A DNA stretch of 64,000 nucleotides from Parapedobacter lycopersici (GTDB lineage Bacteria > Bacteroidota > Bacteroidia > Sphingobacteriales > Sphingobacteriaceae). Positions within the stretch are counted from its first letter, which is position 1, and every line of letters starts with the position of its first letter. Location of the stretch: positions 1 to 64,000 of the forward strand of contig NZ_JAMSLW010000006.1 of the NCBI RefSeq assembly GCF_024643285.1, in the 5' to 3' direction. Position numbers and translations under genes: made by a program. The notes below the pieces were generated by a model. It saw only the letters and a program-made list of their open reading frames with translations. It was not told the DNA's origin and made no database searches. Below are positions 5,127-19,479 of this stretch, piece by piece.

Positions 5127-8100
5127 TTAATACCCAGGGTTTTGCATCATATTAGGATTTAATACAAGTTCCTGTTGAGGTATGGGTAAGAGAAGTTTAT
5201 ATTCTTCAATGTGTAGTTCGCTTGTTGCAAGTTCATTTCTTTTCAGTGCCAAGAAATAAGAACCTTCTCCACCAAGGTTTTCTCGCCATTCATCAATCAG
5301 AATCGTAATGAAGTCTTCGTTTATTTTGTCTATTGCCTCCTTATTATTTCTTCTTTTAAGCTTATTAATGAAATTCGTAGCATCATCATAATTTCCTAAA
5401 TGAAAACTTGCCTCAGCGGCCATTAAAAGGATTTCTGTATTCCTTATAATATGAATGTACTTTCCCTTACCGCATAATTCCACATACTCACTGTTTTGTA
5501 TGTCTTTGTGTTCTCGAAGATTGTGACCCATTATGGCTTCCTTTTCAGTATCGAAAATTTCATCGGTTACTGCTAGAGAAAAATTGGGAGCATTAATGAT
5601 TGATTTTGTGTACTCGCTCACCGCATAATAGTCTTTCGTTTCCAAATAGTATTTCGCTATAATCGAAGCCGCTTGAATATAATGAGATGTGTTTTCTTTA
5701 GTTTTATGTAACAAATCCTTAAGTTGAGAGATATTTGTATCTCTAACCTGTACCGCAGAGACCCTTGGCGGAGCAAAGCTTACATCATGTCCGCTCAGTT
5801 CTGATAACAATGGTACATCTCCCCATAACCCGATCATCACGTAATAAATATATGAAGTAATCAAGTCAAGATTGTTTTGCTCGTCTGATTCAGACCTATT
5901 TTTTAAAGTTTCTATATGTCGAAGAATTTTATACGATGATTGCCATAAGGAGTATATATGGTTAAGATTAGGCGAAATGTCATTTTGTTGAATGGATAGC
6001 AAATCGCGCTCAATATTTGTATTATTCACTATACTATGGCTATAAAGTGCTTCAAACAGAAAGTAATCTTGGATGTATTTTAGAAACTCTTTAGTCAGAT
6101 TTTCCTTGGCCTCAAATTGATTAAATCCGGGGGAAACTGAATAGGCTTGGATTTCTGGCTTTGCCGCGAGCTCCTGTAGTTTTTCTGTGAAGATTTTTTT
6201 GAATGATTCGTCGGGATTTTCTGAAATATAGACAATTTCAGCACTGTCTTTCAGTGCTGAAAAATCTTTATCTAAAAGCCTACGGACAGTCCCCTGTAAC
6301 TTGGAATAGGTGCTTTCGGCGGCGACGAAATAGAATAATACATATCTCGTATTATGAGGAGTGATTTTTTTGAAATTTTCGAAATTTCGAAATGCATTTA
6401 TGACGTCTGAGGTGTTTGCTGAAGCTTTTTTTCGGTATTTTACATCGACTGCAATTGTTTTATTGTTGCTTTCTGCAACAAAATCGAAATTACCGCGGTT
6501 ATCCCTTTGTATAATATAGTCTGGCAGTGTGTCTTTGCCAATATAAAACACATAGTCTTCCAAAATTTCAGCCTTCAGCCGTCTAAGATTAAAAATGGAT
6601 TCGTCCACAAGCTTAATAGCCTCATTACCGACTCTTTCCCCATGCACAATTTGATTTCTTGCTTTTATTATTTCTTTCGCCGAATCGATAGGTTTTTGTC
6701 CTATTACACCTTTTGATTTAAGAGTGCTAAGAAGTGTATCTAATGCCATAACCGGTTGTTTTTGATTTATCCCGATTTCCCCACTTATATGTCTAGTCAA
6801 CTGCTCAAATTCGGCAAATTCTGTAATGAAATCTCCACTGCTAATCCCTTGTTGAGATGCCTGACTCCACAGACCGGTTTCGTCATTAGAAAACCTGTAT
6901 TCGATAGGGCTCTCATTAAACCGGGTCCAATAATAATGACTTTCTTCTTCCTCATCGTCGCTATGGCTGATGCCTAATAATTCTTTTTGCAATAGCTCGT
7001 CAGTCAATAACTCCCCAAGATTATCTAGTTGCAGATAGTAGCGTGCCGGAGCTTTTCCCTTATAGGAATTGATATCCTTAACTTCACTTAAAAGAAAATG
7101 AGCCGATCTATATTCTATCATCCTACGTGCCCAAATGTGTATTTGTGCTGTAAAAAAATCAAGTTGAGTCGGCGTTATAGAAATTTTAGAAAGGGTTTGG
7201 TCGGTAACTTTGCTTAAGCTACTCAATAATTTTGCGTTTCTACTGTGTTCGCTGCTTTTGATTTCATCCAGTACTAAATACGCCTCGTTATTTTGCCATT
7301 GTAGATTCGATCTGATCAAGTTAACCAATATGCGAGGAATTCTCCTTGAATGTAATATCATCGAATCTAAAAAATCTAATACAAGTTCATTTTTCTTATC
7401 TTTTTCTTCGATTAACAGGTTTAAGCAATAACTCTTTAGCGTTGCCTGACTGAGAAACGGAATATGGATGGTTTTAGAAAAAATGCTCGAAATCACTTCA
7501 TTTTCTTTCATTGCTGCTTCTTCATAATGATAGCTAAGCTGCTGTCCGGCAATAACAAAGAAATTTGCTCTACCAGAAAGTAGTAGTGGCTTAAGATCAT
7601 CTATGATTCGCATAACGTCTGTAATATTGTCGTGCTTATCCAATTCATCAAAAGCAATGAGAACTTTTGTTTTGTTCTCGTTTATTTTTTTCAGAATCTC
7701 TAAAAGATAGTGTTCAGCAATCTCGTCATCATATAAGCTTTTTCTAGATGATTCATTGGTATTTGTCTCCGTTGCTGTTTTTTTGATTGCTAATTTCCAT
7801 GTTGTAAGTGTACTCCAAATCAATCCGGTAATAGCTAGAATGGTATTGGTTAGTCTTGAAGGAATAAGATCGAGCCCAAGGTTGATGACAGTTATTAATG
7901 CGAATGCAATCGGCAGAAATAGCTTCTTCAGATTTAATGCTGCGGTATGTTCAAGCTTATTTTCTTCTTGTTCTCTAATTAACTGGTTATTGACAACATC
8001 GTTAAATGTGCGGTCGTATAACAAAGCAAACTCATCTATGAGCTCTTGATCAACATTTTGCTTTTTTGTATAAGCATCAAAAGAAAGGTATAGTTGTCTA

Positions 8101-8375
8101 ATTAGGCGTTTTACGAGGTGAGGATAGCCCTCATATTTGGCAACATTTATGGATGCAAATATGTGATCTGCTTTAAGGTGTTCAGCCACTCTGACAACGA
8201 AAGACGTCTTGCCAACACCTCGATAACCCGAAACCAAAAAAACAGATGGATGGGCATTTTTGAGCTCCTGTATAATTTGCTCTAAGAATTCGTCATCCTC
8301 AAAAACGAATGCTGATTTTTTTGACTCGGAATAAGGTGAGTCAATCAGGTTTTCCGTGTTTATTTTTATATCCAA
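5127..8375 (-). CDS. KAP-like NTPase / HEPN-like / PD-(D/E)XK / SusD-like fusion protein
   Basis: 1082 residues starting at a TTG (8375); an in-frame stop lies six codons upstream and no ATG is available before residue 255. Walker A is GYRGVGKTS (50-58) and Walker B is VLIAFDELDKHD (238-249). Two membrane helices (about 151-171 and 176-196) sit between them, the layout known for KAP-family NTPases such as the phage-exclusion protein PifA. RNQIVHG (573-579) is an HEPN-like R-x4-H motif. D631...D644-V-K646 fits a PD-(D/E)XK nuclease core. Residues from about 770 match SusD: YIYYVMIGLWGDVPLLSEL (843-861), LLMAAEASFHLGNYDDA (983-999), LALKRNELA (1042-1050) and the ending LLLPIPQQELVLNPNMMQNPGY region. 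There is no signal peptide, so the SusD-like part is not a surface lipoprotein. I infer a membrane-attached defence protein with a SusD-like sensor. Confidence 0.8.
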   Translation of the reverse strand: MDIKINTENLIDSPYSESKKSAFVFEDDEFLEQIIQELKNAHPSVFLVSGYRGVGKTSFVVRVAEHLKADHIFASINVAKYEGYPHLVKRLIRQLYLSFDAYTKKQNVDQELIDEFALLYDRTFNDVVNNQLIREQEENKLEHTAALNLKKLFLPIAFALITVINLGLDLIPSRLTNTILAITGLIWSTLTTWKLAIKKTATETNTNESSRKSLYDDEIAEHYLLEILKKINENKTKVLIAFDELDKHDNITDVMRIIDDLKPLLLSGRANFFVIAGQQLSYHYEEAAMKENEVISSIFSKTIHIPFLSQATLKSYCLNLLIEEKDKKNELVLDFLDSMILHSRRIPRILVNLIRSNLQWQNNEAYLVLDEIKSSEHSRNAKLLSSLSKVTDQTLSKISITPTQLDFFTAQIHIWARRMIEYRSAHFLLSEVKDINSYKGKAPARYYLQLDNLGELLTDELLQKELLGISHSDDEEEESHYYWTRFNESPIEYRFSNDETGLWSQASQQGISSGDFITEFAEFEQLTRHISGEIGINQKQPVMALDTLLSTLKSKGVIGQKPIDSAKEIIKARNQIVHGERVGNEAIKLVDESIFNLRRLKAEILEDYVFYIGKDTLPDYIIQRDNRGNFDFVAESNNKTIAVDVKYRKKASANTSDVINAFRNFENFKKITPHNTRYVLFYFVAAESTYSKLQGTVRRLLDKDFSALKDSAEIVYISENPDESFKKIFTEKLQELAAKPEIQAYSVSPGFNQFEAKENLTKEFLKYIQDYFLFEALYSHSIVNNTNIERDLLSIQQNDISPNLNHIYSLWQSSYKILRHIETLKNRSESDEQNNLDLITSYIYYVMIGLWGDVPLLSELSGHDVSFAPPRVSAVQVRDTNISQLKDLLHKTKENTSHYIQAASIIAKYYLETKDYYAVSEYTKSIINAPNFSLAVTDEIFDTEKEAIMGHNLREHKDIQNSEYVELCGKGKYIHIIRNTEILLMAAEASFHLGNYDDATNFINKLKRRNNKEAIDKINEDFITILIDEWRENLGGEGSYFLALKRNELATSELHIEEYKLLLPIPQQELVLNPNMMQNPGY

Positions 8376-8623: not shown

Positions 8624-8752
8624 TTATTTTTTTGGCTTAGGTGGTGGAGGGTTTCTTGATGTGGGAAGTTGTACGGATTTCGGTGACCGGTCCCCGCCTT
8701 TGTCAGTTTTTGTAGTAGGATTTGGTCGTTTGGTGTTATTTTGCTTTGCCAT
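8624..8752 (-). CDS. 42-residue Lys/Pro-rich small protein
   Basis: A short minus-strand frame from the ATG at 8752 to a TAA at 8624-8626. It encodes 42 residues starting MAKQNNTKRPNPTTKTDKGG and ending RNPPPPKPKK. The composition (Lys, Pro, Thr, Asn, no hydrophobic core) indicates a disordered, basic peptide. It follows the SLATT-like gene at 8984-9490 on the same strand after a 231-base gap. Similar tiny basic proteins near two-helix membrane proteins exist in Bacteroidetes, in my memory, so I treat it as real but unproven. It could instead be a chance frame. Confidence 0.45.
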   Translation of the reverse strand: MAKQNNTKRPNPTTKTDKGGDRSPKSVQLPTSRNPPPPKPKK

Positions 8753-8983: not shown

Positions 8984-9490
8984 TTAGTCGCCATCTTCTA
9001 AATCATACATGTTGTGGATAAATACATCGAATTTCGATATTGCTCTATCATAGAGCTTCTTTTTTTCCGGCAAATGGATTGAATTATCCAAGTCCTCAAT
9101 CCTTATGCTAATCTCCCTGATTTTAAAATACTCTTCTGTTGCTTCTGCTTCGCTTAATATTGTGTTTTCTAATTGTATAAACAATCGGTCTAGTTGCTCG
9201 AATTTATTCACATATAACATTCTGTATTCCGGTAATTTGTCCAATAGTTTTTCATCGATTGACAGAGCGGGTATTATTTCTTTAAGCAGCTCTGAAAATG
9301 TTAAAAGCATTAATACTACTAATGAAGAATTCGACAGCCATTTTTCAGCAGCTATACCCCCGATCGAAGCGATGATTTTAAGCATGTTTATCTTTTTTCT
9401 CTTCGATCTCAAACTTGAAAGATAGCAACCTAGATAGAAGTCATATTTTTTTGCGTCACATAACTCATTCCATATACGATCCCTAATCAT
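8984..9490 (-). CDS. Two-transmembrane SLATT-like protein
   Basis: 168 residues, ATG at 9490. The layout is a short N-terminal helix with IWNELCDAKKYDFYLGCYL, then two adjacent hydrophobic helices (about 34-48 and 51-76), then a long helical cytoplasmic tail (77-168) rich in Glu and Lys. This matches the SLATT class of small membrane proteins, which are proposed pore-forming effectors in nucleotide-activated or other bacterial conflict systems. No SMODS or SLOG partner gene is present next to it; the nearest neighbours are the 42-residue gene and the KAP-SusD gene. Family assignment is from pattern only. Confidence 0.55.
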   Translation of the reverse strand: MIRDRIWNELCDAKKYDFYLGCYLSSLRSKRKKINMLKIIASIGGIAAEKWLSNSSLVVLMLLTFSELLKEIIPALSIDEKLLDKLPEYRMLYVNKFEQLDRLFIQLENTILSEAEATEEYFKIREISIRIEDLDNSIHLPEKKKLYDRAISKFDVFIHNMYDLEDGD

Positions 9491-10830: not shown

Positions 10831-12246
10831 ATGAGCGATCAAGACCTAACGAAAAAAATTGATACATATTTTGCTTCTCTGCCAATAAGATTAGAATCAA
10901 CCGTCGAAATCAATATACCTAATGCCCCAGTTCGTATTTACAAAGGCTTGGCAAATATAAGATATGACTGCAAATCGATTGAATGTGCAATTGAAATCTT
11001 ATTTAAATGGCAACCAAGAAGAGGTGTGGAGTTTTTTATAGAAGATGACCGTCCTGAAGTATCAAATATGTTTATGCGTCAAATGGTCGATTCGTCAACT
11101 GTTCAATTTTTAATTGACGGATTTGAATTTGGACAAGTATTGCCAACGAATGCCAACGAGAGCGATAATAAATATGTTATTAGTGGTCTGATTAATCCCC
11201 CTGTCCAACAATATAACAAACTATCAACCAGGACAACTAAATATGACAAAATAGTATTTCATCTATTTAATTTTGTGAATATTCATGGTAGCCCCGTTCG
11301 CAAAGCAAACCAAAAAAGCAGTAGTTTAGCTAGGTTACATTTTCCTGCACAGCATTTTGATATTGTTGTAGACTGTATCCTAAACAACCAAACCGAATGG
11401 GGTGAAATCTCTAAACATGGAGGATATGGGCTTACTCACGTTGGAGAGCTTATATTAAAGGATAATGCGAAAATAGATCAAGATATAGCCTACAAGATAC
11501 TGAATCAATTTGATCTTTTTTTGTCTTTTCTTACGGGAAGAAAGGTGACTCCGTTTTTTATGACTGGAAAACGAGGAGACGAAATACTTTGGGTCGAGTA
11601 CAATAATCGCAGACAGGAGCCTTATATGTACCAACATTCTTGGTTGCCGCAACTATTTGATGAAAAAATCAGTGCTATTTGGGCCGAATTTTATCAGCTT
11701 GCACAAGATAACTATGATCTTGATACATTATACTTGGTCATTCATTGGTACTTGTCTGCTAATAAAGGCTCAGGCGGATTAGAAGGATCTATCATCCTAT
11801 TGCAGAATGCCTTTGAGTTATTGTTCAGATGGATCATTGTCGAACGAAAGAATATGATATCTCCTGATGGCGGGGATGCTCTTCGTGCCAGTGATAAAAT
11901 AAGAATGCTTCTTTATTTAATCAATTGCAGCACTGAATTGCCTACGCATTATCAAAAACAATTTGAAGATCTTATAAAACAAGATCGATCCCTGATTGAT
12001 TTCCCCTTTTTGTTCACTGAAATCAGAAATTCATACGTCCACGCAAATCGCAAGAAAAGAGAAAAAATAAACAATTTGCCAAGTGACTACTTGTATGCAA
12101 TGTTGACTTGCGGTCTCTATTATATCGAGTTACTTATACTCTACTTATTGAATTATGATGGAAAAATCGCTCAACGTATATCTACGGAAAAATTCAGAGG
12201 TGGCAATGAGGTTTTAGTACCTTGGAATAAGAGTGTTGAAAAGTAG
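10831..12246 (+). CDS. HEPN-like protein of the Shedu-linked pair
   Basis: 471 residues, ATG at 10831. The N-terminal 300 residues are mixed alpha and beta with no known motif. The C-terminal part (about 310-445) is all-helical, with GSIILLQNAFELLFRWIIVE and then EIRNSYVHANRKKR (397-410), an R399-x4-H404 motif typical of HEPN RNase domains. A hydrophobic helix LLILYLLNY lies near 434-442. The GTG-started nuclease gene follows after 47 bases on the same strand, so the two are likely co-transcribed. I infer a defence function, with this protein as a second effector or a sensor of the nuclease. Confidence 0.6.
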   Translation: MSDQDLTKKIDTYFASLPIRLESTVEINIPNAPVRIYKGLANIRYDCKSIECAIEILFKWQPRRGVEFFIEDDRPEVSNMFMRQMVDSSTVQFLIDGFEFGQVLPTNANESDNKYVISGLINPPVQQYNKLSTRTTKYDKIVFHLFNFVNIHGSPVRKANQKSSSLARLHFPAQHFDIVVDCILNNQTEWGEISKHGGYGLTHVGELILKDNAKIDQDIAYKILNQFDLFLSFLTGRKVTPFFMTGKRGDEILWVEYNNRRQEPYMYQHSWLPQLFDEKISAIWAEFYQLAQDNYDLDTLYLVIHWYLSANKGSGGLEGSIILLQNAFELLFRWIIVERKNMISPDGGDALRASDKIRMLLYLINCSTELPTHYQKQFEDLIKQDRSLIDFPFLFTEIRNSYVHANRKKREKINNLPSDYLYAMLTCGLYYIELLILYLLNYDGKIAQRISTEKFRGGNEVLVPWNKSVEK

Positions 12247-12293: not shown

Positions 12294-13547
12294 GTGACAA
12301 TTTTGTACCTCTCCGAAAAACAACAAAGTAAAGAAGATATTGCAAAAATATTTTTAGAGGATTATATTGAATCTCCTGAAGATATATGGCCATTTTTCGA
12401 TATTGATTCGTTAACTATATTTCTTCGCGGGACTGTAATTGTTAAGCAGAAACATCTTGATTTTATTGTAGCGGAGATTGAAACAGATCGTTTTTATTCA
12501 AGATTTCTCGATCTGGCTGGGTGGATTAGACAAACCGAAGCTACTTATTCCAGCAATAATTTTCGGCTAAATGCTATTCCGATTTTTGTAATCAAAAAAG
12601 ATGAGCTGGGGAAGGATCAACTGATAGAAAGACTATTGACTGACGAAACCCAAAGACGTATTGATGAAGAGAAAATTTATAGACTTGAAAATTTGCTAGA
12701 AGGTCGTATTATAAAACCCGCTGATGGTGGTCGACTTGGAGTTCGATTTGGAGTATTGCCAAGCAATCTGGATACTTGGTTAGATAGGCTACAATCAGAC
12801 CTCGATACAGTCGAAATTGACCCAATTTCCGGCAGGTTTGGTGACAACTTGAGCATGATATTGCGCCAGAGCCATCGCCTAAAGATATTGTCGGAAAAGT
12901 TTGTCCAAAATGTCCGTAAAATGGACTATATCTGGATTGGAAATAAGGGGAATATTATCGAGTCGGTAGGCGATGAGTTCACAGCTTTATTAAAAAAAAG
13001 TGAGAATAATCCCACGTTGAGAAATGAAAAGGCTTTACACGATTTTCTTAGAAAAAATGAGCATTTGTTGAAAAGTGAAAAGTTTGTTGGGTCAATTTAC
13101 GAGCACCATTTTTATCATCAAAATAGTCGTCGATATGAAGAAGTGGATTTGATTAATGTTACTCAAACTTATACATTGGGAAATATAGAGCTATTTGAAG
13201 TAAAACTGCCTAATCAACGTTTTTTTTATAAGCGAAATCGTAATCCCCTAAAGGTTGCAAAAAAATACTTTCAGCAAATCGGATTGCAATATCATTCGTA
13301 TTTTAGTGATCCAAAAAACTTTCAGGAGATACAGAGGGGATTTAGAAAACATGGCTATTCGATCGAAAATCAAGATTTCGATTTTACTTTATTAATGGGA
13401 AGGGACTATGATAAACCTGAATTCCAAGAGCTAATGGAATATTTCTACCCCAATTTAGCCACCCAAGTACGCTTGATTACTTATGACAGCTTAATTCGGA
13501 AACACGAGTTTTTATTTAATAGAATTAGAAGGTTTGGAATCAATTAG
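12294..13547 (+). CDS. Shedu-type (DUF4263-like) nuclease
   Basis: 417 residues from a GTG at 12294; there is no early ATG. The C-terminal 180 residues have the Shedu layout: E244 in LRNEKALHDFLRKNEHLL, D285 in YEEVDLINV, E302-V-K304 in NIELFEVKLP, and a Q-containing helix VAKKYFQQIGLQY (321-333). This is a PD-(D/E)XK nuclease core in which the conserved aspartate and E-x-K bind metal. Shedu (SduA) is an established single-gene antiphage nuclease; its N-terminal parts vary and act as sensors. Here the N-terminal 230 residues are unlike anything I can name. The coupling to an upstream HEPN-like gene is unusual. Confidence 0.78.
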   Translation: MTILYLSEKQQSKEDIAKIFLEDYIESPEDIWPFFDIDSLTIFLRGTVIVKQKHLDFIVAEIETDRFYSRFLDLAGWIRQTEATYSSNNFRLNAIPIFVIKKDELGKDQLIERLLTDETQRRIDEEKIYRLENLLEGRIIKPADGGRLGVRFGVLPSNLDTWLDRLQSDLDTVEIDPISGRFGDNLSMILRQSHRLKILSEKFVQNVRKMDYIWIGNKGNIIESVGDEFTALLKKSENNPTLRNEKALHDFLRKNEHLLKSEKFVGSIYEHHFYHQNSRRYEEVDLINVTQTYTLGNIELFEVKLPNQRFFYKRNRNPLKVAKKYFQQIGLQYHSYFSDPKNFQEIQRGFRKHGYSIENQDFDFTLLMGRDYDKPEFQELMEYFYPNLATQVRLITYDSLIRKHEFLFNRIRRFGIN

Positions 13548-18090: not shown

Positions 18091-19479
18091 ATGAAAAAGA
18101 TATATTTCATTATTCACTTGCTGATCGGGTCGACAGTACTGTCGTGCTCGGAACTGGTGGAGATCGATCCGCCGACGGACAGCCTGTCGGGTGATCACCT
18201 GTTTGCCGACGATGCGTCGGCTACTTCGGTGCTTAACGGCATGTACACGCAATTAGTCAAAGCGGGTTTTGCGAGCGGCTCCTCAGCCAGTGTTACGCTG
18301 CTGGCCGGCGCGTCGGCGGACGGATTTGTGGCCAACGGCTCCAGCATCGCATCACAGGACATTGCGGCATTTAATGAAAACGCGTTACATAGTGAGATAC
18401 AGGGTGTAGCCGGGTTATGGAACAGCCTGTACCAGCAGGTTTTCTATGCGAATACGGCATTGGAGGGGCTGGCTGCCGCAGATGGGCTTTCGTCCCCGGT
18501 TAAGCGGCAGTTGCAGGGGGAAGCGTTGTTTGTCCGCGCGTTCTGCTATTTCTACCTCGTAAACCTATTTGGCGAGGTGCCGTTGGCGCTGACCGGCGAC
18601 TACCGGGTGAACAATGCGCTGACGCGTGCATCGGTAGCGGCGGTTTACGCACAGCTGATGGCCGACCTGCGCGAAGCGGTGGAATTGCTTCCGGAAGGCT
18701 TTGCCCACACGGGTGGCGAGCGGGTGCGCCCGAACCGGGCTGCCGCGCAGGCCCTATTGGCACGGGCGCTGTTGTTTACGGGCGATTGGCCGGGTGCTGT
18801 GGAACAGGCTTCGGCGGTGATCGACCGGACGGATATGTACCGGCTGACACCGTTGGATGCGGTGTTCCTGAAGAACAGTGAGGCGGCGATCTGGCAGCTG
18901 ATCCCTCCGAATGCGTATACCAATGAAGGGTGGTCATACATTCCTGCGGAAAACAGTTTGCCCAGGTACGTGACGTTAAGCGATGGCTTGCTGGCGCTTT
19001 TCCAGCCGGATGACCAACGGCTTGCTGAATGGATAGGCCGGAGTACATACCTCGACCTGGAATTTTACTACCCTCATAAATACAAGGTGTGGGATAACAG
19101 CATGCCACAGGATGAATACACAATGGTGCTGCGCCTGGCGGAACAATACCTGATCCGCGCGGAGGCGCTGGCCCGACAGGATCAGCTTGCGGAAGCAAAG
19201 GCGGATATGGATGCACTGCGCGGCCGCGCGGGTCTTGATGGGCTGCCCGATGGTATGGGGAAGGAAGCGCTGCTTGCGGAGATTGAAAATGAACGGTTCC
19301 GCGAACTGTTCGGGGAGTGGGGACACCGCTGGCTGGATTTGAAACGCACTGGTAGGGTGGATGCGGTACTAAGTGTGGTAAAGCCGAACTGGCAGTCGTA
19401 TCAGCAGCTGTACCCCATACCGAAAGTTGAACTGGACCGAAACGGAAACCTAAACCCAAACCCCAATTATGAAAATTAA
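18091..19479 (+). CDS. SusD/RagB-family nutrient-binding lipoprotein
   Basis: 462 residues, ATG at 18091, 34 bases after susC. It has a lipoprotein signal (LIGSTVLSCSELVEIDPP, lipid on the Cys). SusD landmarks are LWNSLYQQVFYANTALEGL, AFCYFYLVNLFGEVPLALT, the helical TPR-like repeats RPNRAAAQALLARALLFTGD, and the C-terminal LIRAEALARQDQLAEAKADM, HRWLDLKRTGR and LYPIPKVELDRNGNLNPNPNY. The protein caps the SusC barrel on the cell surface and captures the ligand. It is a good in-window reference for the SusD-like end of the protein at 5127-8375. Confidence 0.92.
   Translation: MKKIYFIIHLLIGSTVLSCSELVEIDPPTDSLSGDHLFADDASATSVLNGMYTQLVKAGFASGSSASVTLLAGASADGFVANGSSIASQDIAAFNENALHSEIQGVAGLWNSLYQQVFYANTALEGLAAADGLSSPVKRQLQGEALFVRAFCYFYLVNLFGEVPLALTGDYRVNNALTRASVAAVYAQLMADLREAVELLPEGFAHTGGERVRPNRAAAQALLARALLFTGDWPGAVEQASAVIDRTDMYRLTPLDAVFLKNSEAAIWQLIPPNAYTNEGWSYIPAENSLPRYVTLSDGLLALFQPDDQRLAEWIGRSTYLDLEFYYPHKYKVWDNSMPQDEYTMVLRLAEQYLIRAEALARQDQLAEAKADMDALRGRAGLDGLPDGMGKEALLAEIENERFRELFGEWGHRWLDLKRTGRVDAVLSVVKPNWQSYQQLYPIPKVELDRNGNLNPNPNYEN

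Follow-up and report, generated by a model that had tools for sequence, protein, structure and literature searches.

Nutrient uptake at the cell surface of Bacteroidota has SusD as a hallmark, normally in the form of an extracellular surface lipoprotein. The phage-exclusion protein PifA is a KAP NTPase, and it is in this second group of proteins that a SusD domain has now been encountered. KAP NTPases also take part in phage defence in the Tmn (PMC11846954) and QatA (PMC13279940) systems; Tmn is a KAP-family P-loop NTPase with membrane segments and a defence setting, in which it resembles the protein described here. However, the described KAP defence NTPases (Tmn, QatA and PifA) have no SusD, whereas the present chain adds HEPN-like, nuclease-like and SusD parts. 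STAND/Avs-type immune NTPases share its overall logic of an effector, an NTPase switch and a C-terminal sensor. A 2026 preprint (PMC13174449) reports DUF4062 to be a TIR-like NADase in the antiphage system Swarozyc, whose proteins bind the phage portal through an auxiliary domain at the C-terminus. The effector-NTPase-sensor logic is known; SusD serving as C-terminal module in an immune-type protein of the cytoplasm is, as far as the literature searched shows, undescribed.

The gene lies at 5127..8375 (-) of the window, meaning the whole analysed stretch of 64,000 nucleotides from Parapedobacter lycopersici, and encodes 1082 aa arranged as KAP NTPase, helical/winged region, HEPN-like region, nuclease-like region and SusD domain. 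The ORF runs uninterrupted from 8375 to 5127 on the minus strand, from a TTG start to the stop; this start is taken as correct because three relatives begin with sequences (MKIEIDHK..., VKILINHK... and LKIQINYS...) that line up with LDIKINTE of the window protein. The NTPase domain begins directly at the N-terminus, with neither a signal peptide nor a lipobox cysteine. The ORF is one protein, and the original prediction of a single 1082-residue product without a signal peptide was borne out by a real, unbroken frame on the minus strand. GC content by domain and across the SusD junction is even (0.36, 0.365, 0.379 and 0.352) and does not jump where the SusD part begins, contrary to what would be expected had the host's own SusD been captured locally in recent times.

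The KAP-type P-loop NTPase domain occupies residues 1-415 (7131..8375 (-); PF07693, E 2.5e-6), with the Pfam KAP_NTPase model passing its cut-off of 20 at 27.4 bits over residues 30-415. Walker A is GYRGVGKT at residues 50-57 (8205..8228 (-)) and Walker B is AFDELDK at residues 241-247 (7635..7655 (-)); G50-Y-R-G-x-G-K of the former and DELDK of the latter are invariant in four relatives. Between the two, hydropathy places a membrane hairpin at residues about 148-200 (7776..7934 (-)), with a strong peak near residue 162 (2.14) and a weak one near residue 188 (1.43). Of the Walker pair with two intervening membrane helices that had been proposed, the motifs and the first membrane segment were found as described, while the second segment is weak. 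Walker A and Walker B of one NTPase cannot lie on opposite faces of the membrane; the insert would then make an even number of crossings and leave the C-terminal SusD part in the cytoplasm, as expected from the family layout and subject to the weakness of the second hydrophobic segment. Membership of the STAND/Avs group is not supported, as the nSTAND and NACHT Pfam models stay below cut-off on the window protein and its NTPase, with the hairpin in the membrane, is of the KAP kind. A PADLOC scan of the protein gave no meaningful family match and none named Tmn, for which the library may lack a model, and comparison with PHROGs gave solely clamp-loader-like P-loop matches.

Residues about 505-605 (6561..6863 (-)) are a probable HEPN domain, with weak but concordant matches to HEPN Pfam families (HepT-like 0.0036, RiboL-PSP 0.011, DUF4145 0.017 and Apea 0.024), the top profile, HepT-like, reaching 17.5 bits under a cut-off of 23.5. 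The motif RNQIVHG (Rx4H) is present at residues 573-579, and a low-confidence single-sequence model of residues 505-742 (pLDDT 57) shows four helices in this region. A possible PD-(D/E)XK nuclease domain spans residues about 612-735 (6171..6542 (-)), with FDFVAE...DVKYR at residues 630-648 and a strand-strand-helix-strand order in the same low-confidence model (pLDDT 57). Both the RNQIVHG motif and the D...D-V-K motif, the latter as D631...D644-V-K646, were recovered where they had first been placed. As the HEPN profiles are weak, no nuclease Pfam family matches the window protein and the model has a pLDDT of 57, the HEPN assignment is graded as probable and the nuclease as a motif-level possibility. 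A fold search with this low-confidence model gave scattered matches, none of them meaningful, and was set aside.

The SusD domain covers residues about 750-1082 (5130..6128 (-)) and ends in NPNMMQNPGY. On the same chain as the KAP_NTPase match, Pfam SusD_RagB (PF07980) scores 64.7 bits against a cut-off of 23.1 (E 1.5e-17), and a PDB sequence search with this part finds the solved SusD structures 3kez, 3myv and 3mcx. AlphaFold modeling from 22 aligned sequences gave a pLDDT of 83 and a pTM of 0.86; the alignment included SusD proteins and is biased to the SusD fold, the sequence evidence being independent of the model. Foldseek gave 44 matches to the model at E<=0.001, every one of them a member of the SusD family or a glycan-binding surface protein. 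A second structural aligner places 3mcx at Z 32.7 (rmsd 3.0, 328 residues aligned) and Bacteroides thetaiotaomicron SusD, 3ck7, at Z 31.9. Designed TPRs rank below the SusD matches (TM about 0.25-0.29), and a generic TPR match was thus rejected; the concern raised at the outset, that the resemblance might come from TPR helices only, fails against both structural comparisons. The landmarks of the fold are retained to the last residue; the domain is complete, and its assignment to SusD is beyond doubt. It is like the SusD/RagB surface lipoproteins in its whole fold and in its terminal NPNMMQNPGY, but differs from them in lacking a signal peptide, a lipobox and an adjoining SusC, and in being fused to an NTPase.

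The ancestry of the domain was traced in a tree of 47 SusD domains, 25 of them canonical, including the window's true SusD (18091-19479). The window domain and a second cytoplasmic SusD, from Sphingobacterium micropteri, nest in a clade of Sphingobacteriaceae lipoproteins without SusC (99/96 for the smallest set), and the 25 canonical SusDs form a separate group (96/89); the two cytoplasmic domains appear as a sister pair in 46% of bootstrap trees. The interval between E946 and R978 is 32 residues in the window protein versus 73-140 in SusC-paired SusDs, and measures 27-34 residues in the window protein, S. micropteri, the SusC-less lipoproteins and a fasciclin-SusD group. Every SusC-paired SusD compared thus has an additional segment of about 45-110 residues, which is absent from the window domain. 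Identity to the SusC-less lipoproteins is 25-31%, with clade-specific residues kept. The landmarks originally matched between the domain and the window's true SusD are genuine SusD landmarks, but by the tree that protein is a distant cousin rather than the source. Origin from it was rejected on the tree and on base composition.

The nearest relatives of the window SusD are the SusC-less "VEKGPFLKGS" lipoproteins of Pedobacter, Sphingobacterium and their kin (for example L006, L007, L016 and L017), which have the same short segment; they differ from the window protein in having a signal sequence and in lacking the NTPase fusion. Neighbourhoods were read at six of their loci, and a SusC gene directly adjoins in none of the six; among the SusD loci fetched in the genome scan, almost every one shows a lipoprotein signal and, immediately upstream, a gene of SusC size. 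Between 5 and 14 kb of the window there is likewise no gene for SusC or a TonB-dependent receptor. In a search of the host's own genome, no other SusD surfaced as a member of the SusC-less clade, the best others being canonical SusDs. Within the clade, L006, L007, L016-L023 and L033 carry the N-terminal "VEKGPFLKGS" domain and miss the segment of about 45-110 residues. SusC-less SusD lipoproteins adjoin an exopolysaccharide export locus in three genomes (G250, G329 and G392), with a tandem pair in G392. The SusD lipoproteins L010, L012, L013, L024 and L025 have an extra N-terminal region (a fasciclin domain where scanned) and form a well-supported separate group, also without the long SusD segment.

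The S. micropteri protein (L034/L004) is 534 aa long and combines DUF4062 (E 8.2e-30) with SusD (E 9.4e-16), without a signal; its locus has neither an upstream SusC gene nor a lipoprotein signal. One SusD lineage accordingly follows two N-terminal parts that are cytoplasmic and unrelated to each other, the KAP core of the window and DUF4062 of S. micropteri; by Pfam, the window protein itself has no DUF4062. The window protein would be like Swarozyc in joining a cytoplasmic effector to a C-terminal auxiliary sensor, a position occupied by SusD behind DUF4062 in L034, and is unlike it in having no DUF4062 and in that the auxiliary domain studied in Swarozyc is a winged-helix portal binder and not SusD. 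Beside the DUF4062-SusD gene lies an IetA-like fragment (L073:9528-9968 (+); PADLOC E 1.2e-30), probably the remnant of a decayed defence system. A further candidate for a third cytoplasmic SusD (L087, a G1096 fragment) was not counted, its contig being cut and its nearest relatives being lipoproteins.

Relatives of the KAP core occur in Priestia and in genomes G1074 and G164, none with SusD. The protein of Priestia plasmid pFDU301C (L071:5995-8319 (+); 774 aa) has 33% identity over residues 1-622 and stops after the nuclease-like region, with no extra C-terminal domain. The G1074 relative (L082:2877-5687 (-)) has 936 aa in one frame, and that of G164 (L072:4762-7627 (-)) is divided into two overlapping ORFs; the two have in common a non-SusD C-terminal domain of about 150 residues with no clear Pfam family. 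The window and Priestia proteins retain Rx4H, which is lost in G1074 and G164, and among the KAP-core relatives compared the complete D...DxK is confined to the window protein; with these motifs so unevenly kept, the effector at work may not be the same in every member. Effector/switch cores are thus combined with exchangeable C-terminal modules. The KAP-HEPN relative in Priestia megaterium lies on a mobilizable plasmid, and the core crosses phyla.

At the thresholds used, no KAP-SusD homologue of identical layout was found in the samples at family, order, class and phylum level or in two further ones at genus level (altogether 1952 genome scans, overlapping and repeated), nor was the fusion found in plasmids, phages or three viral-contig scans. 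These scans with their repeats, together with one pattern scan of the whole collection, yielded two cytoplasmic SusDs of the window lineage; as SusD fusions of other lineages would rank low in such searches, this rarity applies to the SusD lineage of the window. The KAP-SusD fusion is so far unique. The original prediction had known of no described system with this layout, and a search of the literature outside supplements and subscription journals agrees in finding none; within the same scope, SusD was not found together with KAP, NTPase and HEPN, nor with a TIR domain and phage. A literature search for "integrated decoy" returned nothing for bacteria.

The window protein is probably a stand-alone, membrane-anchored cytoplasmic defence protein built of an effector, an NTPase switch and a C-terminal SusD sensor. 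This reading draws on the SusD fold, on the one SusD lineage behind both the KAP core and DUF4062, on the KAP-core relatives with other ends, on the low-GC island and on the KAP NTPases that act in phage defence. Its role in defence, the sensing of a ligand, oligomerisation and cell killing are inferred and would fit together as follows. The KAP NTPase, whose Walker A and B are separated by two passes through the membrane that leave both ends in the cytoplasm, would be the switch; the HEPN and nuclease-like parts would be the effectors, acting on RNA and possibly DNA; and the C-terminal SusD, kin to SusC-less surface lipoproteins, would be the sensor. At rest, the NTPase would keep the effectors silent. 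Upon infection, SusD would bind a foreign ligand in the cell, for which a structural or receptor-binding protein of a phage is the likeliest candidate and a peptide or glycan a less likely one, and NTP-driven oligomerisation would lead to cleavage of RNA, perhaps also of DNA, such that the infected cell dies or stalls in the manner of abortive infection. Points against this explanation are that the SusD part may be a scaffold, that the effector could differ, as the nuclease motif is not retained in relatives and the HEPN motif is missing from two of them, that PADLOC yields no meaningful family match and that the exact fusion is a singleton.

SusD could instead be a stable helical scaffold for oligomerisation or for binding another protein, for example the 168-aa product of the upstream ORF, with sensing located elsewhere, for example in the NTPase or membrane hairpin; SusD is rich in TPRs and the Priestia relative does without any extra C-terminal domain, as such a role would allow, yet we regard it as unlikely. 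The same lineage stands behind DUF4062, and in the Swarozyc case that has been studied it is the auxiliary domain at the C-terminus that senses; another C-terminal module takes the place of SusD in other KAP relatives; it is because of this recurrence and replacement that a sensor is favoured over a scaffold. That the gene is a functionless recent fusion or an assembly chimera, as its single known copy might suggest, is highly improbable given one open frame without a stop, even base composition including the junction, landmarks intact to the last residue and a second cytoplasmic SusD of the same lineage in another genome.

Another reading has SusD as an integrated decoy, mimicking a surface lipoprotein that serves as receptor for a phage or bacteriocin so that phage receptor-binding proteins newly made in the cytoplasm would bind it and set off the effectors. 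Minimal SusDs of the SusC-less clade are not known to us as phage receptors. The domain does group with a surface lipoprotein lineage and keeps its clade-specific residues, and a Bacteroides phage-host study (PMC8375218) describes phase-variable surface loci that include RagB/SusD loci. On the other hand, identity of 25-31% to the lipoproteins is low for a faithful mimic, the host genome search surfaced no further member of the clade that could be mimicked, and absence of the long segment of SusC-paired SusDs makes mimicry of a SusC/SusD complex unlikely; a decoy role is therefore given a small chance. The version originally put forward, a decoy for phage or toxin proteins targeting SusC/SusD complexes whose engagement would release the nuclease, is weakened in particular as to that target, as the domain lies outside the SusC-paired proteins, among SusC-less lipoproteins without the long segment. 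The broader idea that bacteria build integrated decoys, by moving a surface-receptor domain into the cytoplasm and fusing it to two effectors where it would expose receptor-binding phage proteins, is doubtful to a similar degree.

One SusD lineage behind two unrelated immune-type effectors is of wider interest, as it provides a concrete case in which the reuse of a surface-receptor domain for sensing inside the cell can be put to the test. Should phage receptor-binding proteins be the trigger, the protein would be a bacterial counterpart of the integrated decoys of plant immune receptors; otherwise, it would represent a new candidate sensor type for KAP and DUF4062 defence proteins. It may also explain some annotations of "SusD" proteins that have no signal.

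The surroundings of the gene, about 3 to 14 kb of the window, have 35-41% GC versus 53-57% in the adjacent true SusC/SusD operon; the gene and most of its neighbours lie at 35-38%, compared with 55-57% for the true SusC/SusD. They include a Shedu-like SduA_C protein (12294-13547 (+); SduA_C E 1.4e-8), preceded on the same strand, with a gap of 47 bases, by the gene for an Apea-HEPN-like protein (10831-12246 (+); a weak Pfam match, below cut-off); the two are possibly a two-gene defence unit. This low-GC region resembles a defence island, which is context rather than proof. The initial picture of a KAP NTPase fused to a genuine SusD, predicted cytoplasmic, is upheld by Pfam and the fold, and the gene sits among defence-type genes. 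Upstream of the KAP-SusD gene, the 168-aa protein (8984..9490 (-)) has a central hydrophobic stretch and no Pfam family, and possibly belongs to the KAP-SusD unit; by eye it is SLATT-like. A 42-aa proline/lysine-rich ORF (MAKQNNTKRPNP...PKPKK) also lies upstream, at 8624..8752 (-).
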